Below are positions 40,376 through 54,527 of a stretch of 64,000 nucleotides of DNA, in pieces. Both the position numbers and the translations under genes were made by a program. The notes under the pieces are model-generated. The model ran no database searches, was not told the origin of the DNA, and saw only the letters and a list, made by a program, of their open reading frames with translations. The DNA is taken from NCBI RefSeq assembly GCF_011683955.1, contig NZ_JAAQPI010000004.1, forward strand, positions 186,001 to 250,000. The letters run 5' to 3'. Source of the stretch: Pseudomaricurvus alkylphenolicus (GTDB lineage Bacteria; Pseudomonadota; Gammaproteobacteria; Pseudomonadales; Cellvibrionaceae). Numbering within the stretch: the first letter of the stretch is position 1; each line of letters begins with the position of its first letter.

Positions 40376-42586
40376 TTAAAAGTGATAGGAAGCCGTAAAT
40401 CCGTACCAACGTGGTGGTCCGAAAACGGACTCGTTAAAAGGGGTTCCCCCAACCACATCAGCCCCCGCCAAATCCAGGTTATACACTCTGTACTCGGTAT
40501 TGGTCACGTTCTTGACCCAGGCCATGACTTTCCATTGCGCATCTGCCGCTGTGTAGGCGACATTGGCATTGCCAATAAAGTGGGCATCCTCGAAGGAAGC
40601 CGGCGCGTTGGTCGTTTCCAGATACTGGTCACCATTGTAGTTGAAGTCAAACTGCGCTGACATGGTCCCGCCAAGAGCCGCCCACTCGTAGCGAACCAAT
40701 CCATTGATACTGACCTTCGGAGCCATGGGCAACTCAGCATCCACCTCCACGCCCTCGGTGACGGCGGGTACATTCTCTACATGTGAATCCACCACGGACA
40801 AACCAAGTAGTACGTCCCACCCCTCGGCAGGTAACAATGTCAGCTCCAATTCGCCGCCAACCGCTTCGGCATCCCGGTTAACGACGGTCTGAATAAAATT
40901 GGTCGTAGAAAAGGACTGATAGTCCTGATAATCGTAGTAAAAGAGTGTGGCATTCAGGCGTGCCGCCCCGTCCAAAAAGCTGAATTTGGTACCGACTTCA
41001 TAGGAGTAGAGTGTCTCTTCGTCGTGTCTGAGTACACCTGCTGGAATTTCCCCGGTGCTGAAATCAACCACATCCACAAAGAAGGAAGGCGTCACCCAGT
41101 TGCCGCCCTTAATGCCCCTATTCCAGGCCACAAATGCCAGGGTATTTTCGTTGGGACGCCAATCCAGCTGCACTCTGGCAGCCCAATCGCCATAGTCGAT
41201 ATCTTCTTCGTAGTCTGCTTCCAAGACGGATTCAAATCCGGCTCCAAAATCGAGAATCCGCTGACCGCCATAGTTAAAATCTTTATCGTCTTGCGACCAA
41301 CGGTAGCCCGTCACCAACGTCATTGTCTCACCAATATCGTACTCGTATTGCCCAAACACGGACCAGTTAGTAGCGTCCAGGCTGTTTTGCATATCGAAGC
41401 CGCCTTCCTCTCCACCACCCCCCGAGGCAATAAACCCTCTGACGGTTGCAGAGTTTTCCTGCTCAAACGACAAGTAGTAGAGGCCGGCCTGCCAGCGGGA
41501 GCGCTCCCCTTCACCGGACAGTCGAAGCTCCTGCGACCACTGTTCGTGGTCTGATTTCGCGCCAAATATGAAAATGGGTGCAGGGCGGGCATCGGCGTCT
41601 TCCAGATACACCTTGTCGTTGGCCATATAGTTGGTGATAGACACCAGCTCCAAATCGTCAAGGTCCCACGTTAATTTAATGGTCGCGGATGTATTTTCAC
41701 GATCCATATATCCATCAGTATCGGAGTTAATCTCGTGTACATCCGTCTGCGACTCGATGTTACCCAACCCCGTGACGGGATCCGGCGTGGAGGGCGCGTA
41801 CTTGTAGGTGCCGGTGGGTACATCGTCGTCTTCGGCATAGCTGATTTTGATCCAGGCATCCAGATTATCGGTGACGTCAAACTGTAGCTGTCCTTTCAAG
41901 GCGTAACCATCCAGGCCGCTGGAATCTCTTCCTCCGGGGTACTGGTTTTCGAGATAGCCTTCAGAAGTCTCCCAGCGAGCGGACAGTCGGCCCAACACAT
42001 CCTCACTGATTTGGCCGCTAATGGCGCCCTCGACACTGAACTTGTCATAGTCGGCCGCACTGACCTCCACATAACCTTCGGTATCTTCCGTGGGTTTTTT
42101 GCTGATGAAATGAACCAGTCCGCCAGTGGCATTGCGACCGAAGAGTGTTCCCTGTGGCCCTCTCAACACTTCCGCTCTTTCCGTATCGAACAGCTGGCCA
42201 TTTATCGCATTCATACTCACGATGTAAGCATCGTCGACATAGGTAGCAACCGGTGCCTCCAGGTTATCAGAAAAATTATTTTGAGAAATTCCACGAAGGT
42301 TAAAAATAGTAATTGCCGGGCTAAAGCTGTTCATATTAAAGCCGGGTACCTGTTGGGTAATTTCAACGGTATTGGTCACCCCCAGCGCCTTCAGCTGGTC
42401 CCCGTCAAACGCGGAAACCGATATGCCGACATCCTGCATGGACTGTTCACGCTTTTGAGCTGTGACAGTTATTTCCTCTAGTATTGCGGCATGTGTGGTT
42501 GGTATCGACACACCCATCACCAGTGTGCTGGCGAGAGTAGCCAGGCCAGAGGCCCTTCGCTGAACATTGGATGTTGTGTTTATCAT
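40376..42586 (-). CDS. TonB-dependent receptor (paralogue 2), beside the dehalogenase
   Basis: 736 residues: signal peptide to about 33, EEITVTAQKREQS, plug motif VLRGPQGTLFGRNATGGLVHF, C-terminal WYGFTASYHF. Long stretches match the receptor at 15208 (TIFNLRGISQNNF and NLEAPVATYVDDAYI against TIFNLRGVSQNNF and NLEAPVAVYFDDVYI), so the two are close paralogues. It is divergent from the fused reductive dehalogenase; it may import halogenated aromatics or a corrinoid. GAGGA lies 9 bp before the ATG. Confidence 0.92.
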   Translation of the reverse strand: MINTTSNVQRRASGLATLASTLVMGVSIPTTHAAILEEITVTAQKREQSMQDVGISVSAFDGDQLKALGVTNTVEITQQVPGFNMNSFSPAITIFNLRGISQNNFSDNLEAPVATYVDDAYIVSMNAINGQLFDTERAEVLRGPQGTLFGRNATGGLVHFISKKPTEDTEGYVEVSAADYDKFSVEGAISGQISEDVLGRLSARWETSEGYLENQYPGGRDSSGLDGYALKGQLQFDVTDNLDAWIKISYAEDDDVPTGTYKYAPSTPDPVTGLGNIESQTDVHEINSDTDGYMDRENTSATIKLTWDLDDLELVSITNYMANDKVYLEDADARPAPIFIFGAKSDHEQWSQELRLSGEGERSRWQAGLYYLSFEQENSATVRGFIASGGGGEEGGFDMQNSLDATNWSVFGQYEYDIGETMTLVTGYRWSQDDKDFNYGGQRILDFGAGFESVLEADYEEDIDYGDWAARVQLDWRPNENTLAFVAWNRGIKGGNWVTPSFFVDVVDFSTGEIPAGVLRHDEETLYSYEVGTKFSFLDGAARLNATLFYYDYQDYQSFSTTNFIQTVVNRDAEAVGGELELTLLPAEGWDVLLGLSVVDSHVENVPAVTEGVEVDAELPMAPKVSINGLVRYEWAALGGTMSAQFDFNYNGDQYLETTNAPASFEDAHFIGNANVAYTAADAQWKVMAWVKNVTNTEYRVYNLDLAGADVVGGTPFNESVFGPPRWYGFTASYHF

Positions 42587-43001: not shown

Positions 43002-46000
43002 ATGAGATTGTTTTCCTATAAAAACCGCGCCATCGCCATGGGGCCACTGCCCTACGAAAAACTGAAACGGACTGGGTCACCCGTTGATTTGTCCACTGTT
43101 ACCTCTCGGCAACCGTTAGAATTTCGCTGCGAAGACAATCCCGCATCATTGGTCAATGCCATGCAAATCTACGCCGCTTATATGGACGCATCCCGCAATG
43201 GACCGGTCTCGGATCAGATGCCCGATATCCCCGCCTGCCCTCAGCAACGAGCCGAACAGGTGAAGTCCATGGGCTATTTTATGGATGCCTTGCAAGTCAG
43301 CTGTTGTTCCATCTCCGGCGAGTTGTTTCTGAACGAAAGTTACATCAATCCACACCTGTCCGATGTTGAGAATGAACTCCATGCGTTGCCGCCGGAGCGT
43401 CCGGGATTCCATCATCATATCGCGCACGAATTGGACCAGAGCATCGAATCAAACGCGGAGTCCATTCAGCACCATACTCACACCATTGTGCTTATCTACG
43501 ATGTTCCTCGGGAGTTGCAACTCGAAGAGTCCGCCTATGACTGGCTCGCCGACTGCGGACTTCACCGAGGCAGTATCCGCGCCTCGGAAACCGCCGTCGT
43601 ACTGGCCAACTATATCCGTGCGCTGGGCTTCGAGGCACGTGCGCATACGGAATCCACCACCGATATAGACCTCGCCAGGGCGGCAGTTGCAGCCGGTGCC
43701 GCAGAGATCGACGAGAAGGGAAGGCTTCACCACCCCTACCTGGGGCAGAGATTTGCCGTCGCTGCCGTCACCACCACTCTGGAAGTCGCCGCCGACCAAC
43801 CTTTGGCTCCCCGAGGCCTGGCGGACAGTATTCGATCCCACGGCCCTGCATGGATGCTGGGCAGGGGGAAGGCGTCGGGCACCCTTAAAAACGCCTTTAA
43901 TCTCGACCCCTATAAACACAAAAGCTATGAGCGGGACATCTATGGCCTTGACAGAATCAAGCGTCGACAAGAACCGACAACACTGATCGATGAGCCCAGA
44001 ATCCCCCGCGTCCCCAAACGCCACGATGTCTTCTGGCGAGCCAACTTCGGCGATATGGGCAAGGCGGTGCAGGATGCTTGTGTGGATGAATTCTGCGTGG
44101 TTAAAACAGCCTCCGCTGAAGCCCAGTATGGTCTTATTGGAAGTTTGCACCTGTTGGAGCGCAGAACACCCGCGGCAGACAAAGCTCCCGGACATTGCGA
44201 TCCCCGACTCAATGCCAAGAAAATAAAGTCCGCACTGCATTACCTGGGTGCCGACATGGTCGGAATATCCGAGGCACCCGACTGGGTCTGGTATTCCCAC
44301 GATTTGGATGGTTCGGAAATTCATCCTCCCCATAAAAACGCGATCACCCTGTTGATCGATCAAGGTCACGAAACCATGGAGGGCGCCAGCGGTGACGATT
44401 GGATAGCTGCCAGCCAAAGTATGCGCGCTTACCTTCGCGGCATGTTGCTGGGGGGCATTGTTGCCGAACAAATCCGCAACCTGGGATACAGTGCCTCCAC
44501 CCACAGTGTTGTCGACAGCGATGTGATTCACACGCCACTGGTTTTGCTGTCGGGCCTGGGGGAAATCAGCCGTATCGGAGACACTGCGCTGAATCCGTTT
44601 TTGGGGCCGCGTTTGAAAACCCTGGTCATTACCACGGATATGCCCCTGGAAGCGGACAAACCCATCGACTTTGGCTTGCAGGCATTTTGCAACGCCTGTA
44701 AAAAGTGTGCTCGCGAGTGTCCCTCTGGCGCGATCTCTGCGGGCCCAAAAGTGATGTTTAACGGCTACGAAACCTGGAAAGCGGATGTCGAAAAATGCGG
44801 GCGCTATCGAATGACCCAGGACCAGGGTGCCATGTGCGGCCGCTGCATGAAAACCTGTCCCTGGAACCTGGAAGGGTTGTTTGTAGAATCGCCGTTCCGC
44901 TGGCTGGCCATGAAGGTTCCGCAGGCGGCCAAAGGGCTAACCTGGTTGGACGACAAATTGGGGCATGGCAACATCAATCCGATGAAAAAATGGTGGTGGG
45001 ATATAGAAACCACCCAGACCGGCGTTAAACAGGTGGTGCCTGAAGAACGGATTAACGTTCGAGAATTGAATTTGGATCTGGACCTGCAGCCTGAAGACCA
45101 GACTCTGGCCTGCTACCCGGCGGATATGGCACCGGCCCCTGTACCCATTGTGCAGCCAATGGATAGAGAGCTGGCCATCGAACGCTACCAAAATCTATTG
45201 TCGCCTGAGGAATACCAAGCGAAATTGGACAGGGGCGATACCGACAACCTGGTACCTGTCTATCAAATTCCGGAAGATACGCCTGACGTGCAGTATCTGC
45301 GTATTGCAAAGCGGGAAATGAGTGCCGAAGGCGTTGTCCGGTTTGAACTGGAAAGTCCAGACGGCAAGCCTTTAACCCCTTTTACAGCGGGTGCCCACAT
45401 TGATCTGGTGATCGATGCCCCCTTCACCCGACAGTACAGCCTGGCCGGCGATCCCGCTGATCGCTCCAAATATGTGCTGGGAATTTTGAATGAACCGGAA
45501 GGACGTGGAGGTTCGCTCCGCGCCCATGAACGTTTGTTAGAAGGCGCAATTGTTCCCGTTACCGGTCCCCGTAACCATTTCGAACTGGAAGCGTCGGCAG
45601 AGAAAACACTTTTGTTTGGCGGCGGTATCGGCATTACCCCCATGATCGCTATGGGTCATCATTTATACGCCATCGGCGCTGATTTCGATCTTCACTACAG
45701 CTTTCGCTCACGCTCGACGGCGGGATTTATCGAAGAGCTATTGGCAACGCCCTGGGCAGATCGGGTACATCTTCATATATCAGCGGAAGGCACTCGAGCG
45801 GATCTGGCGGCACTCATTGGCGCAGCTGAACCGGGCAAGTTTCTATACACCTGCGGACCCAATGCGTTTATGGACGCTGTGCTCACTACAGGAGAAACCC
45901 TGGGTTGGCATGAACACAACCTGAGAAGAGAATATTTCTCAGCACCGGAACACGATGAGTATGAGAATTTCCCGTTTAAGGTAAAAATTGCCAGCACCGG

Positions 46001-46238
46001 TAAAACCATTGATGTTCCTGCAGAAAAATCCCTGGCCGAGGTCCTGGAAGAGAATCATATTCCCGTAATCACCAAGTGCAACGACGGTATTTGCGGTGTC
46101 TGTTCGACAAGGTACATTGAAGGTGATGTGGAGCACAGGGATTTCGTACTGTCCCGGGACGAACGCCGGGAGCATCTTATCGCCTGTTGTTCCCGTGTCA
46201 CCCCGGAAAGTGAGCAGGTTTTGGTCCTGGATAGATGA
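43002..46238 (+). CDS. Catabolic reductive dehalogenase fused to a flavin/[2Fe-2S] reductase
   Basis: 1078 residues, no Tat signal or membrane segment, so cytoplasmic. Residues about 1-560: an RdhA-like cobalamin-binding region, apparently a degenerate repeat (to about 330) followed by the active module with WYSHDLDGSEIHPPHKNAI. Two [4Fe-4S] clusters: Cys563, 566, 569, 573 (CNACKKCARECP) and Cys599, 612, 615, 619 (CGRCMKTCPWN). Residues about 760-990: a ferredoxin-NADP reductase-like domain with RQYSLAGD and GGGIGITPM. C-terminal plant-type [2Fe-2S] with Cys1026, 1031, 1034 and 1062/1063. This is the plan of self-sufficient, oxygen-tolerant RdhAs such as BhbA, which debrominate phenols using NAD(P)H. 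Confidence 0.9.
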   Translation: MRLFSYKNRAIAMGPLPYEKLKRTGSPVDLSTVTSRQPLEFRCEDNPASLVNAMQIYAAYMDASRNGPVSDQMPDIPACPQQRAEQVKSMGYFMDALQVSCCSISGELFLNESYINPHLSDVENELHALPPERPGFHHHIAHELDQSIESNAESIQHHTHTIVLIYDVPRELQLEESAYDWLADCGLHRGSIRASETAVVLANYIRALGFEARAHTESTTDIDLARAAVAAGAAEIDEKGRLHHPYLGQRFAVAAVTTTLEVAADQPLAPRGLADSIRSHGPAWMLGRGKASGTLKNAFNLDPYKHKSYERDIYGLDRIKRRQEPTTLIDEPRIPRVPKRHDVFWRANFGDMGKAVQDACVDEFCVVKTASAEAQYGLIGSLHLLERRTPAADKAPGHCDPRLNAKKIKSALHYLGADMVGISEAPDWVWYSHDLDGSEIHPPHKNAITLLIDQGHETMEGASGDDWIAASQSMRAYLRGMLLGGIVAEQIRNLGYSASTHSVVDSDVIHTPLVLLSGLGEISRIGDTALNPFLGPRLKTLVITTDMPLEADKPIDFGLQAFCNACKKCARECPSGAISAGPKVMFNGYETWKADVEKCGRYRMTQDQGAMCGRCMKTCPWNLEGLFVESPFRWLAMKVPQAAKGLTWLDDKLGHGNINPMKKWWWDIETTQTGVKQVVPEERINVRELNLDLDLQPEDQTLACYPADMAPAPVPIVQPMDRELAIERYQNLLSPEEYQAKLDRGDTDNLVPVYQIPEDTPDVQYLRIAKREMSAEGVVRFELESPDGKPLTPFTAGAHIDLVIDAPFTRQYSLAGDPADRSKYVLGILNEPEGRGGSLRAHERLLEGAIVPVTGPRNHFELEASAEKTLLFGGGIGITPMIAMGHHLYAIGADFDLHYSFRSRSTAGFIEELLATPWADRVHLHISAEGTRADLAALIGAAEPGKFLYTCGPNAFMDAVLTTGETLGWHEHNLRREYFSAPEHDEYENFPFKVKIASTGKTIDVPAEKSLAEVLEENHIPVITKCNDGICGVCSTRYIEGDVEHRDFVLSRDERREHLIACCSRVTPESEQVLVLDR

Positions 46239-46252
46239 TCTCGTGGGAGTGT

Positions 46253-46777
46253 CTAGTCCCGATCCAGGGCTTCGCACCAATTCAGCAACGCTGGAACCTC
46301 ACAGGGCAGGAGATCACTGCAACCGCCGGTAAACTCCTGCCAGCGTTCCTGCACGCCGGCTGGCACCGCAACCAGAATAGGAATACCGTCCGCCATGGCA
46401 TGCAGAATCTCGTCGGCAAGACCGCCTCCCTGCTGCTCCTGTTCGCCGAATTTCTCAACCACCACCAGGTCAACGCGGTCAGCAATGGCCTTTCTCAACA
46501 CGGCTGTAGCGTCGGTCAGCGCTGAGAGATTCAGCGAGCATTCATTGTTTTCGATCTGCTCCCTGGTGGGGCGATTGATCGGAATACGCTCGCCGGTGGA
46601 TACATCGATAATATCGACTTGCGTCTTGTAGCCATCTTTATGGCGATGAATCTCCTGCACCACTCCGCCAACGCGCCAGCCACGCTCGAGCAGTTCTTGA
46701 GCCACCAGATTGAGTGCGTCTCGGGAAGGCGTTTCTTTGGTATACAGGACGGCGCCGGCGCGCACGTGGTCGAGCAT
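46253..46777 (-). CDS. DUF2478-family protein
   Basis: 174 residues from the ATG at 46777 (a TTG at 46798 is the alternative). GAVLYTKETPSRDALNLVAQEL at the start, VVQEIHRHKDGY, RVDLVVVEKFGEQEQQGGGL with a Walker-B-like strand, and PILVAVPAG are typical of DUF2478, a P-loop-like family whose role is uncertain and which is sometimes linked to molybdenum or nucleotide metabolism. It is convergent with the dehalogenase (14-bp gap). Confidence 0.75.
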   Translation of the reverse strand: MLDHVRAGAVLYTKETPSRDALNLVAQELLERGWRVGGVVQEIHRHKDGYKTQVDIIDVSTGERIPINRPTREQIENNECSLNLSALTDATAVLRKAIADRVDLVVVEKFGEQEQQGGGLADEILHAMADGIPILVAVPAGVQERWQEFTGGCSDLLPCEVPALLNWCEALDRD

Positions 46778-46869
46778 GGGGTTCTCGCTTGATGTCAATC
46801 AAAATCCAACGCTCACTATACGATAATTACACGGTGTCTGTCCCCTGTCTCAAGACATCGGACGAACCA

Positions 46870-53690: not shown

Positions 53691-54527
53691 ATGGCTGTTA
53701 TCGAACCCCAGACCCTGGAAGTAAAGGAATGGACGGGATTGCATCTTATGCACTACGGCATGAGCAACTGCTCCCAGCGTGTGCGAATCATGCTGGAGGA
53801 AAAAGGACTGACATGGAACAGTCGTATTATCGATATCCCGAAGGAAGAAAACCTGACCGACTGGTATCAGGGAATCAATCCCAATGGGGTTGTGCCTACG
53901 CTGGTGCACGATGGCAAGGTGATTATTGAGTCGACGGATATACTCGAATATCTGGACGAGCAATTTCCGGGGAGCTGTGGCAGCCTGACAAACGGCGATG
54001 GCCTGCAGCACAATACCCTGAAGGCGATGATAGCAAGAGCCAACAGCGCACAAACACAAATCAAACTGCTGTCGTTCGAATATCTGTTCAAACCTATGGC
54101 CAAGAAAAATCGAAAGCAATTGGCAACTCTGGAGCAAAAACTTCGAAATCAAGAGCTCTTGGCATTCCACCAGCGGTTTTCTTCCAAATCAGGTGTTGCT
54201 ACAGGCGAGCTGCTCAACAATATCTGTGTGATGCACGAGCATTTGCACACGTTGGAACAACAACTCTCGCAGAATTCCTGGCTGGCCGGTAATCGCTTCA
54301 GCATCGCCGATATCGCCTGGATCGTAAACATTCATCGTCTCGAATTGATGCATTTTCCCTTGGATCGCTACCCACATCTTGTGTCCTGGACTGCGCGAAT
54401 GAAATCCCGTCCCAGCTACCGAAAAGCCCTGGTCGATTACCAACCTCCAGCCATTGGTATCGTCAGGTGCTACGCCTGGTTTCGCTCCAGATTTGGACGG
54501 GCATCCTTCCGGCACGCTGTATGCTAA
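53691..54527 (+). CDS. Glutathione S-transferase-like protein
   Basis: 278 residues. The N-terminal thioredoxin-like domain has SNCSQRVRIMLEEKGL, NPNGVVPTLVHDGKVIIESTDI (with the conserved cis-Pro) and a long helical C-terminal domain with LAGNRFSIADIAW. GSTs conjugate or reduce electrophiles with glutathione; the exact class is not fixed. It lies next to cytochrome b561, and GGGAGA precedes the ATG. Confidence 0.85.
   Translation: MAVIEPQTLEVKEWTGLHLMHYGMSNCSQRVRIMLEEKGLTWNSRIIDIPKEENLTDWYQGINPNGVVPTLVHDGKVIIESTDILEYLDEQFPGSCGSLTNGDGLQHNTLKAMIARANSAQTQIKLLSFEYLFKPMAKKNRKQLATLEQKLRNQELLAFHQRFSSKSGVATGELLNNICVMHEHLHTLEQQLSQNSWLAGNRFSIADIAWIVNIHRLELMHFPLDRYPHLVSWTARMKSRPSYRKALVDYQPPAIGIVRCYAWFRSRFGRASFRHAVC

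Follow-up and report, generated by a model that had tools for sequence, protein, structure and literature searches.

A self-sufficient, catabolic-type reductive dehalogenase predicted in the gammaproteobacterium Pseudomaricurvus alkylphenolicus

We analysed a stretch of 64,000 nucleotides (the window) from Pseudomaricurvus alkylphenolicus (contig NZ_JAAQPI010000004.1, positions 186,001 to 250,000) and one protein encoded in it, P0001, at 43002-46238 on the forward strand. Sequence comparison and a structure model support P0001 as a genuine, well-formed, self-sufficient reductive dehalogenase of the BhbA type, lacking a Tat (twin-arginine translocation) signal and with its catalytic and cluster residues intact. 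By analogy with characterized enzymes, it is very likely an oxygen-tolerant reductive dehalogenase of the cytoplasm with a built-in reductase, and would remove halogen from ortho-halogenated phenolics with NAD(P)H. The architecture has been published as the self-sufficient catabolic type of BhbA and JtRdhA and is therefore not new. Enzymes like P0001 were rare among the genomes sampled from its class, P0001 itself is isolated in the family tree, and the genome that encodes it is unusual.

The preliminary description of this DNA had claimed a single frame of 1078 residues. The frame starts with MRLFSYKNRAIAMG and is an intact open frame of 1078 codons plus stop, and the longest open run in 200 single-base shuffles of the same DNA was 249 codons. 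Its content of guanine plus cytosine, overall (GC) and at third codon positions (GC3), was 54.4% and 59.1%, against means of 54.8% (standard deviation 2.2) and 62.2% (standard deviation 4.5) in 20 window frames; composition gave no signal of a recent import. The frame and its predicted parts, partly delimited with NpRdhA of Nitratireductor pacificus from the Protein Data Bank (PDB), are as follows.

43002-46238, forward strand: predicted self-sufficient catabolic reductive dehalogenase, 1078 amino acids (aa), from the family score, the PDB match and the AlphaFold2 model
43002-44201, forward strand: N-terminal region with a vestigial (duplicated) corrinoid domain, about residues 1-400, with F344, from the NpRdhA alignment (residues 1-101 and 112 onward) and the model; boundary approximate, drawn by eye
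44202-45221, forward strand: RdhA corrinoid domain with two [4Fe-4S] motifs, about residues 401-740, with S473, M474, Y477, K539 and R603 and cysteines in 563-573 and 599-619, from NCBIfam and the NpRdhA alignment
45279-45971, forward strand: reductase module of the phthalate-dioxygenase-reductase type, predicted to bind flavin mononucleotide (FMN) and NAD(P)H, about residues 760-990, from NCBIfam, PDB and the fold match
45972-46235, forward strand: C-terminal [2Fe-2S] ferredoxin domain, predicted ligands C1026, C1031, C1034 and C1062, from Pfam Fer2 (995-1067) and conserved columns

The NCBIfam reductive dehalogenase model TIGR02486 scored 201.4 bits on P0001 (cut-off 160.35), and the model for epoxyqueuosine reductase (QueG), TIGR00276, scored 20.3 bits (cut-off 200). 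The top PDB sequence match was the NpRdhA structure 4ras (E 1.4e-154, residues 157-742, with a shorter match at 1-105). For residues 760-1071 the next matches were self-sufficient P450s and the phthalate dioxygenase reductase 2pia (E 9.6e-59). Several NCBIfam reductase models also matched parts of residues 764-1075, each under its own cut-off, and Pfam placed 4Fe-4S dicluster domains at 563-622.

The catalytic residues were compared with those of NpRdhA, using numbering from the PDB alignment. F291, S422, M423, Y426, K488 and R552 of NpRdhA correspond to F344, S473, M474, Y477, K539 and R603 of P0001, all identical, so that the catalytic Tyr and Lys, along with the Arg, are all kept. The same six residues were found in 90/90 rows of an alignment of 80 genome-contig loci, P0001, seven further genome loci and two plasmid proteins (88 distinct). 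The two predicted [4Fe-4S] cysteine sets (C563, C566, C569 and C573; C599, C612, C615 and C619), both named in the preliminary description, align one to one with the eight of NpRdhA and are invariant in 57 aligned rows. The C-terminal [2Fe-2S] set had been given as 1026-1063; the set as such stands, with ligands nearly invariant in the same 57 rows, but its last ligand needs to be corrected, as C1062 is nearly invariant and C1063 is not. The N-terminus, read by eye with no predictor used, is in line with the absence of a Tat signal.

AlphaFold2 was run on the 57 aligned sequences and the model was compared with solved structures using Foldseek. The model had a mean predicted local distance difference test score (pLDDT) of 84.4 and a predicted template-modelling score (pTM) of 0.86. 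The highest ranks were taken by 14 NpRdhA chains, with template-modelling scores of 0.91-0.92 by target length and 0.59-0.60 by query length over 751-759 columns, followed by CYP116B46 and 2pia. P0001 matches NpRdhA along about its whole length in both sequence and model, and thus appears to hold the vestigial duplicated corrinoid domain, which is described for NpRdhA in Fisher et al. 2023 (PMC10463259). The structure prediction suggested in the preliminary description as a check was thus favourable, and the family score, the NpRdhA match, the intact residues and the model together bear out its assignment to BhbA-type self-sufficient enzymes.

Domain order, intact catalytic and cluster residues and the fold match were obtained for P0001 itself; oxygen tolerance, electron path, halogen preference and chemistry are carried over from JtRdhA and NpRdhA, with the chemistry taken from Fisher et al. 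2023 and from Halliwell et al. 2020 (PMC7565698). In the proposed mechanism, hydride from NAD(P)H would pass to the C-terminal flavin, and single electrons would then move from the flavin to the corrinoid by way of the [2Fe-2S] domain and the two [4Fe-4S] clusters. The corrinoid would remove the halogen, most likely bromo or iodo, from an ortho-halogenated phenolic substrate held by K539, R603 and S473, and Y477 would protonate the ring carbon. We infer that the substrate is a natural halophenol and that it differs from the substrates of the paralogues near aromatic-degradation genes described below.

Such an enzyme would need a corrinoid. The genome (assembly G000; 8.88 Mb, 99.6% complete, 2.1% contamination) encodes CobS and, about 7 kb from it on the same contig, a BtuB-like receptor, in a region of about 10 kb (G000:C34:351908-361415) that is likely a cobalamin salvage locus. 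No match to CbiC/CobH was found in the genome, where other corrin-ring genes were not searched for. Because CobS and the BtuB-like receptor are present and CbiC/CobH is unmatched, the organism probably salvages cobalamin rather than making the corrin ring.

The host of JtRdhA, the alphaproteobacterium Jhaorihella thermophila, belongs to another group than the host of P0001. JtRdhA is described as sharing with P0001 the lack of a Tat signal, the duplicated corrinoid domain, two [4Fe-4S] clusters, a fused phthalate-dioxygenase-reductase module and the same Tyr, Lys and Arg (PMC10463259). It removes bromine and iodine, but not chlorine, from phenols with NADPH, also in air, and enables growth of E. 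coli W on 3-bromo-4-hydroxyphenylacetate (PMC10463259). JtRdhA has been expressed in E. coli together with the cobalamin uptake genes BtuCEDFB. BhbA of Comamonas sp. 7D-2 (plasmid pBHB, NC_021077.1) is 48.8% identical to P0001 over the full length and is likewise one fused frame. BhbA adjoins protocatechuate 4,5-dioxygenase genes on a conjugative plasmid, with an aldehyde dehydrogenase gene 3 kb further along, whereas no such neighbour was found for P0001 among those scanned (33332-63030 apart from a few small frames). In this genome BhbA is more closely related to a paralogue, L003, than to P0001. NpRdhA (4ras, 6zxu, 6zy1) shows 38-39% identity to P0001 in the structural alignment and shares the six checked residues. 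Unlike P0001, it is without a fused reductase (PMC10463259), and its pocket residues F290 and N452 differ in P0001, as does F310 or P311 depending on the alignment. Respiratory reductive dehalogenases of the PceA type share the corrinoid and [4Fe-4S] core. In contrast to them, P0001 has a fused reductase and an additional vestigial domain. The Tat signal and RdhB membrane anchor of a respiratory enzyme were not found, P0001 being Tat-less by eye and its scanned neighbours giving no RdhB-like match.

The same genome was found to hold three fused copies, namely P0001, L002 (1088 aa, 51% identity to P0001) and L003 (1072 aa, 49%), and one unfused copy, L004 (758 aa, 46%). In the region of L002 (L027 8998-18413, G000:C11) a 4-hydroxybenzoate 3-monooxygenase (646 bits, above cut-off) lies 2.7 kb from L002, together with a class III extradiol dioxygenase and AraC/LysR regulators. 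L003 (L028 4413-12846, G000:C11) overlaps an aldehyde dehydrogenase with 63% identity to its counterpart on the BhbA plasmid. At a distance of 1.6 kb from L003 is a class III extradiol dioxygenase beta subunit, 63% identical to the one beside BhbA, and a P450 is also near. The catabolic reading is therefore well grounded for L002 and L003, which lie near aromatic-degradation genes; for P0001 it would hold by analogy only.

Several points weigh against the reading of P0001 as a dehalogenase of ortho-halogenated phenolics with its own reductase, or call for caution with it. No aromatic-degradation gene above cut-off was found among the scanned neighbours, nor any gene of ring oxidation or ring cleavage there that would tie P0001 to a BhbA-like pathway. 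The pocket positions vary among the 90 rows, and the column near residue 365, which aligns with the pocket lid of NpRdhA, holds Tyr in 76/90 rows and Cys only in P0001, so that the specificity may differ; this column falls on F310 of NpRdhA in the 90-row alignment or on P311 in the pairwise PDB alignment, its exact partner being uncertain. At 31 positions P0001 lacks the residue that at least 95% of its relatives share, more than in 9/10 other rows counted (0-17, and 33 in L069). The likeness to JtRdhA follows the description in the paper, the sequence itself being unaligned, and the BtuB-like receptor scored 416.5 bits, below its model's cut-off of 599.7.

P0001 could be the same enzyme type with a non-catabolic role, detoxifying or recycling a halogenated natural product, made by neighbours or by the organism's own halogenases, with no gain of carbon. 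The scanned neighbours without aromatic-degradation genes above cut-off would fit this, as would the two paralogues already placed near such genes and the genome's six matches to the tryptophan-halogenase family that exceed 400 bits. However, catabolic genes can be non-adjacent, and the halogenase matches are at family level only, the control search with that Pfam matching even E. coli. We regard this role as quite possible, though not probable. It is unlikely that P0001 is instead a diverged copy of altered or lost function, in which the fold and catalytic residues are kept, the lid is changed and halophenols are poor substrates or none. Pointing that way are the lid Cys, the 31 positions at which P0001 lacks a near-invariant residue, its end branch in the careful tree (1.19), which is longer than that of any other fused protein, and a closest relative of at most 54% identity among the matches listed. 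On the other side are the intact frame with GC and GC3 like the 20 window frames, the kept catalytic and cluster residues and the good model confidence.

A relative of QueG that is not a dehalogenase would belong to the same class III corrinoid family (PMC10463259), and a weak QueG match does exist. With 20.3 bits against a cut-off of 200, a reductive dehalogenase score well above its own cut-off and the Tyr, Lys and Arg of NpRdhA present, homology to QueG only is contradicted; we rejected this identity on the scores and consider it highly improbable.

Relatives were sought by searching contigs of GTDB species with patterns from P0001, and 80 were kept. At least 577 of at least 593 pattern matches encode relatives. 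By name, 74 of the 80 are alphaproteobacterial and 5 gammaproteobacterial, and 1 is a Flavobacteriales metagenome-assembled genome. Among the matches listed, identity to P0001 was at most 53% by best segment and at most 54% over the aligned length. One viral-contig stretch matched the patterns and none encoded a relative, and a viral origin was rejected. In the family of one carrier (G776), 38/100 drawn genomes carry one copy each (E 1e-150, up to 7 candidates scored per genome). Among the loci compared, these RdhA genes are nearest to Phaeobacter, Ruegeria and Rhodobacteraceae records (72-82% DNA identity), and since these records are alphaproteobacterial, the family is probably Rhodobacteraceae.

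Within the host's class, 6/368 other genomes carry a relative at E 1e-100 with only 2 candidates scored per genome: three are fused (G146, G284, G338) and three match the RdhA part only (G188, G215, G433). Among 96 related genomes, full fusions were found in G026, G030 and G047, all within 60 others of the host's family, and an unfused relative in G063. The RdhA of G030 is identical to that of Exilibacterium, in agreement with the gammaproteobacterial host given in the preliminary description. None of the five congeners (0/5) has any RdhA relative. The other matches among the 96 genomes span the reductase part only. The congeners have genomes of 4.0-5.7 Mb, compared with 8.9 Mb here. Literature searches for reductive dehalogenase with Cellvibrionaceae, or with Pseudovibrio, Gammaproteobacteria and marine, found nothing, which is no proof of absence.

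In the trees the four copies P0001, L002, L003 and L004 are all apart. L002 joins the remaining copies from its family, L003 falls with gamma proteobacterium NOR5-3 in the vicinity of BhbA, and L004 is basal, beside the unfused outgroup L012; P0001 stands alone. P0001 as a recent duplicate of the family's own copy (the L002 clade) was rejected by the approximately unbiased test (p-AU 7.9e-5; the group was named after the first tree). A position with the BhbA/L003 clade had support of only 73/39 and was neither shown nor rejected.

Two shorter proteins of the corrinoid type were also observed in the genome. L005 (1471-2718, reverse strand; 415 aa) scored 193.9 bits with the reductive dehalogenase model, above cut-off, and lacks a Tat signal by eye. 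It resembles Ros_A3X954, the marine debrominase of PMC13101508, in the position of PF13486 and the Cys motifs, the sequences being unaligned. L006 (1429-2559, reverse strand) is a class III corrinoid-like protein with 94 bits for reductive dehalogenase and 59 for QueG, both below cut-off. The tryptophan-halogenase-family matches lie on contigs C1, C10, C23, C34 and C55.

The unfused L004 ends a tight korA-korB-fdxA-rdhA run (L029 5379-11121, G000:C70:195379-201121).

L029 5379-7406: 2-oxoacid:acceptor oxidoreductase alpha subunit (korA), 663.6 bits, above cut-off
L029 7428-8471: beta subunit (korB), 240.5 and 237.6 bits with the best models, under the cut-off in each case
L029 8506-8829: FdxA ferredoxin, 144.5 bits, above cut-off
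L029 8845-11121: rdhA of L004, unfused, last gene of the run

The simplest reading of this run is that electrons from a 2-oxoacid reach L004 through ferredoxin. The alpha subunit was absent at E 1e-100 from 28/28 other relatives, and KorAB was found beside 0/6 other unfused relatives in the available flanks (L034, L126, L127, L128, L152, L153; only 4.5 kb for L128), of which L152 (G831) is the closest at 58%. A KorAB link as a conserved rule is thus unsupported. No such operon was found in literature pairing reductive dehalogenase with 2-oxoacid, judged by title and the start of the abstract.

The genes around P0001 include the following.

40376-42586, reverse strand: divergently oriented TonB-dependent receptor of 736 aa, its functional link to P0001 unproven
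46253-46798, reverse strand: convergently oriented DUF2478/NTPase_1 protein of 181 aa; its link is unproven, and the other RdhA loci searched gave no relative of it
53691-54527: protein of the glutathione S-transferase (GST) family; maleylacetoacetate isomerase 84 bits, below the cut-off of 171

Further neighbours are a choline-dehydrogenase-like GMC oxidoreductase (below the model's cut-off), an MFS protein, an ApbA ketopantoate-reductase-family protein, PhyH, a TetR-like protein and a cytochrome b561. In the window no RNA family or riboswitch was detected at gathering scores, and no tRNA gene. The neighbours were compared with other RdhA loci, with flanks of at most 8-10 kb and many shorter. 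For 10 of the 13 window neighbours (FeADH, NhaD, LuxR, DUF2478, MFS, ApbA, PhyH, TetR, cytb561 and TBDR2) there was no match at 60% coverage and E 1e-15 in the loci searched, and a conserved neighbourhood of P0001 was rejected on this count. The GST had a relative only in another region of its own genome and the GMC oxidoreductase in 3 loci; a second set of RdhA loci gave no match to any window neighbour.

The preliminary description had taken the TonB receptor to suggest use of natural halophenols. TonB-receptor barrels number at least 116 in the genome (116 among 313 scored candidates), and at least four of these receptors are 44-55% identical to the one adjoining P0001 over nearly the full length; the receptor is therefore weak evidence. 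A 40% relative lies directly upstream of RdhA in L045, a likeness we judged weak because receptors of the own genome are closer. That the organism uses natural halophenols is plausible, with two paralogues near aromatic-degradation genes; for P0001 itself, amid so many receptors and no such genes above cut-off among the scanned neighbours, the suggestion would hold by analogy only.

As the enzyme type is known, P0001 alone adds one diverged member to it. We tentatively consider, while finding it rather doubtful, that P0001 is the first representative observed of a deep branch of its own among self-sufficient reductive dehalogenases, with its own substrate (lid Tyr to Cys) outside hydroxybenzoate catabolism. 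Its gammaproteobacterial host would then have gathered five reductive dehalogenases whose electron supplies differ, with three NAD(P)H-fused enzymes, one that a 2-oxoacid:ferredoxin oxidoreductase would drive and one short and debrominase-like. The korAB-fdxA-rdhA run may offer a testable answer, at least for L004, to the question of the electron source of catabolic RdhAs without a reductase. If the reading at the level of the organism is true, a single gammaproteobacterium would have parallel dehalogenation routes with different electron supplies, and would be a natural test bed for bromophenol turnover by aerobes.

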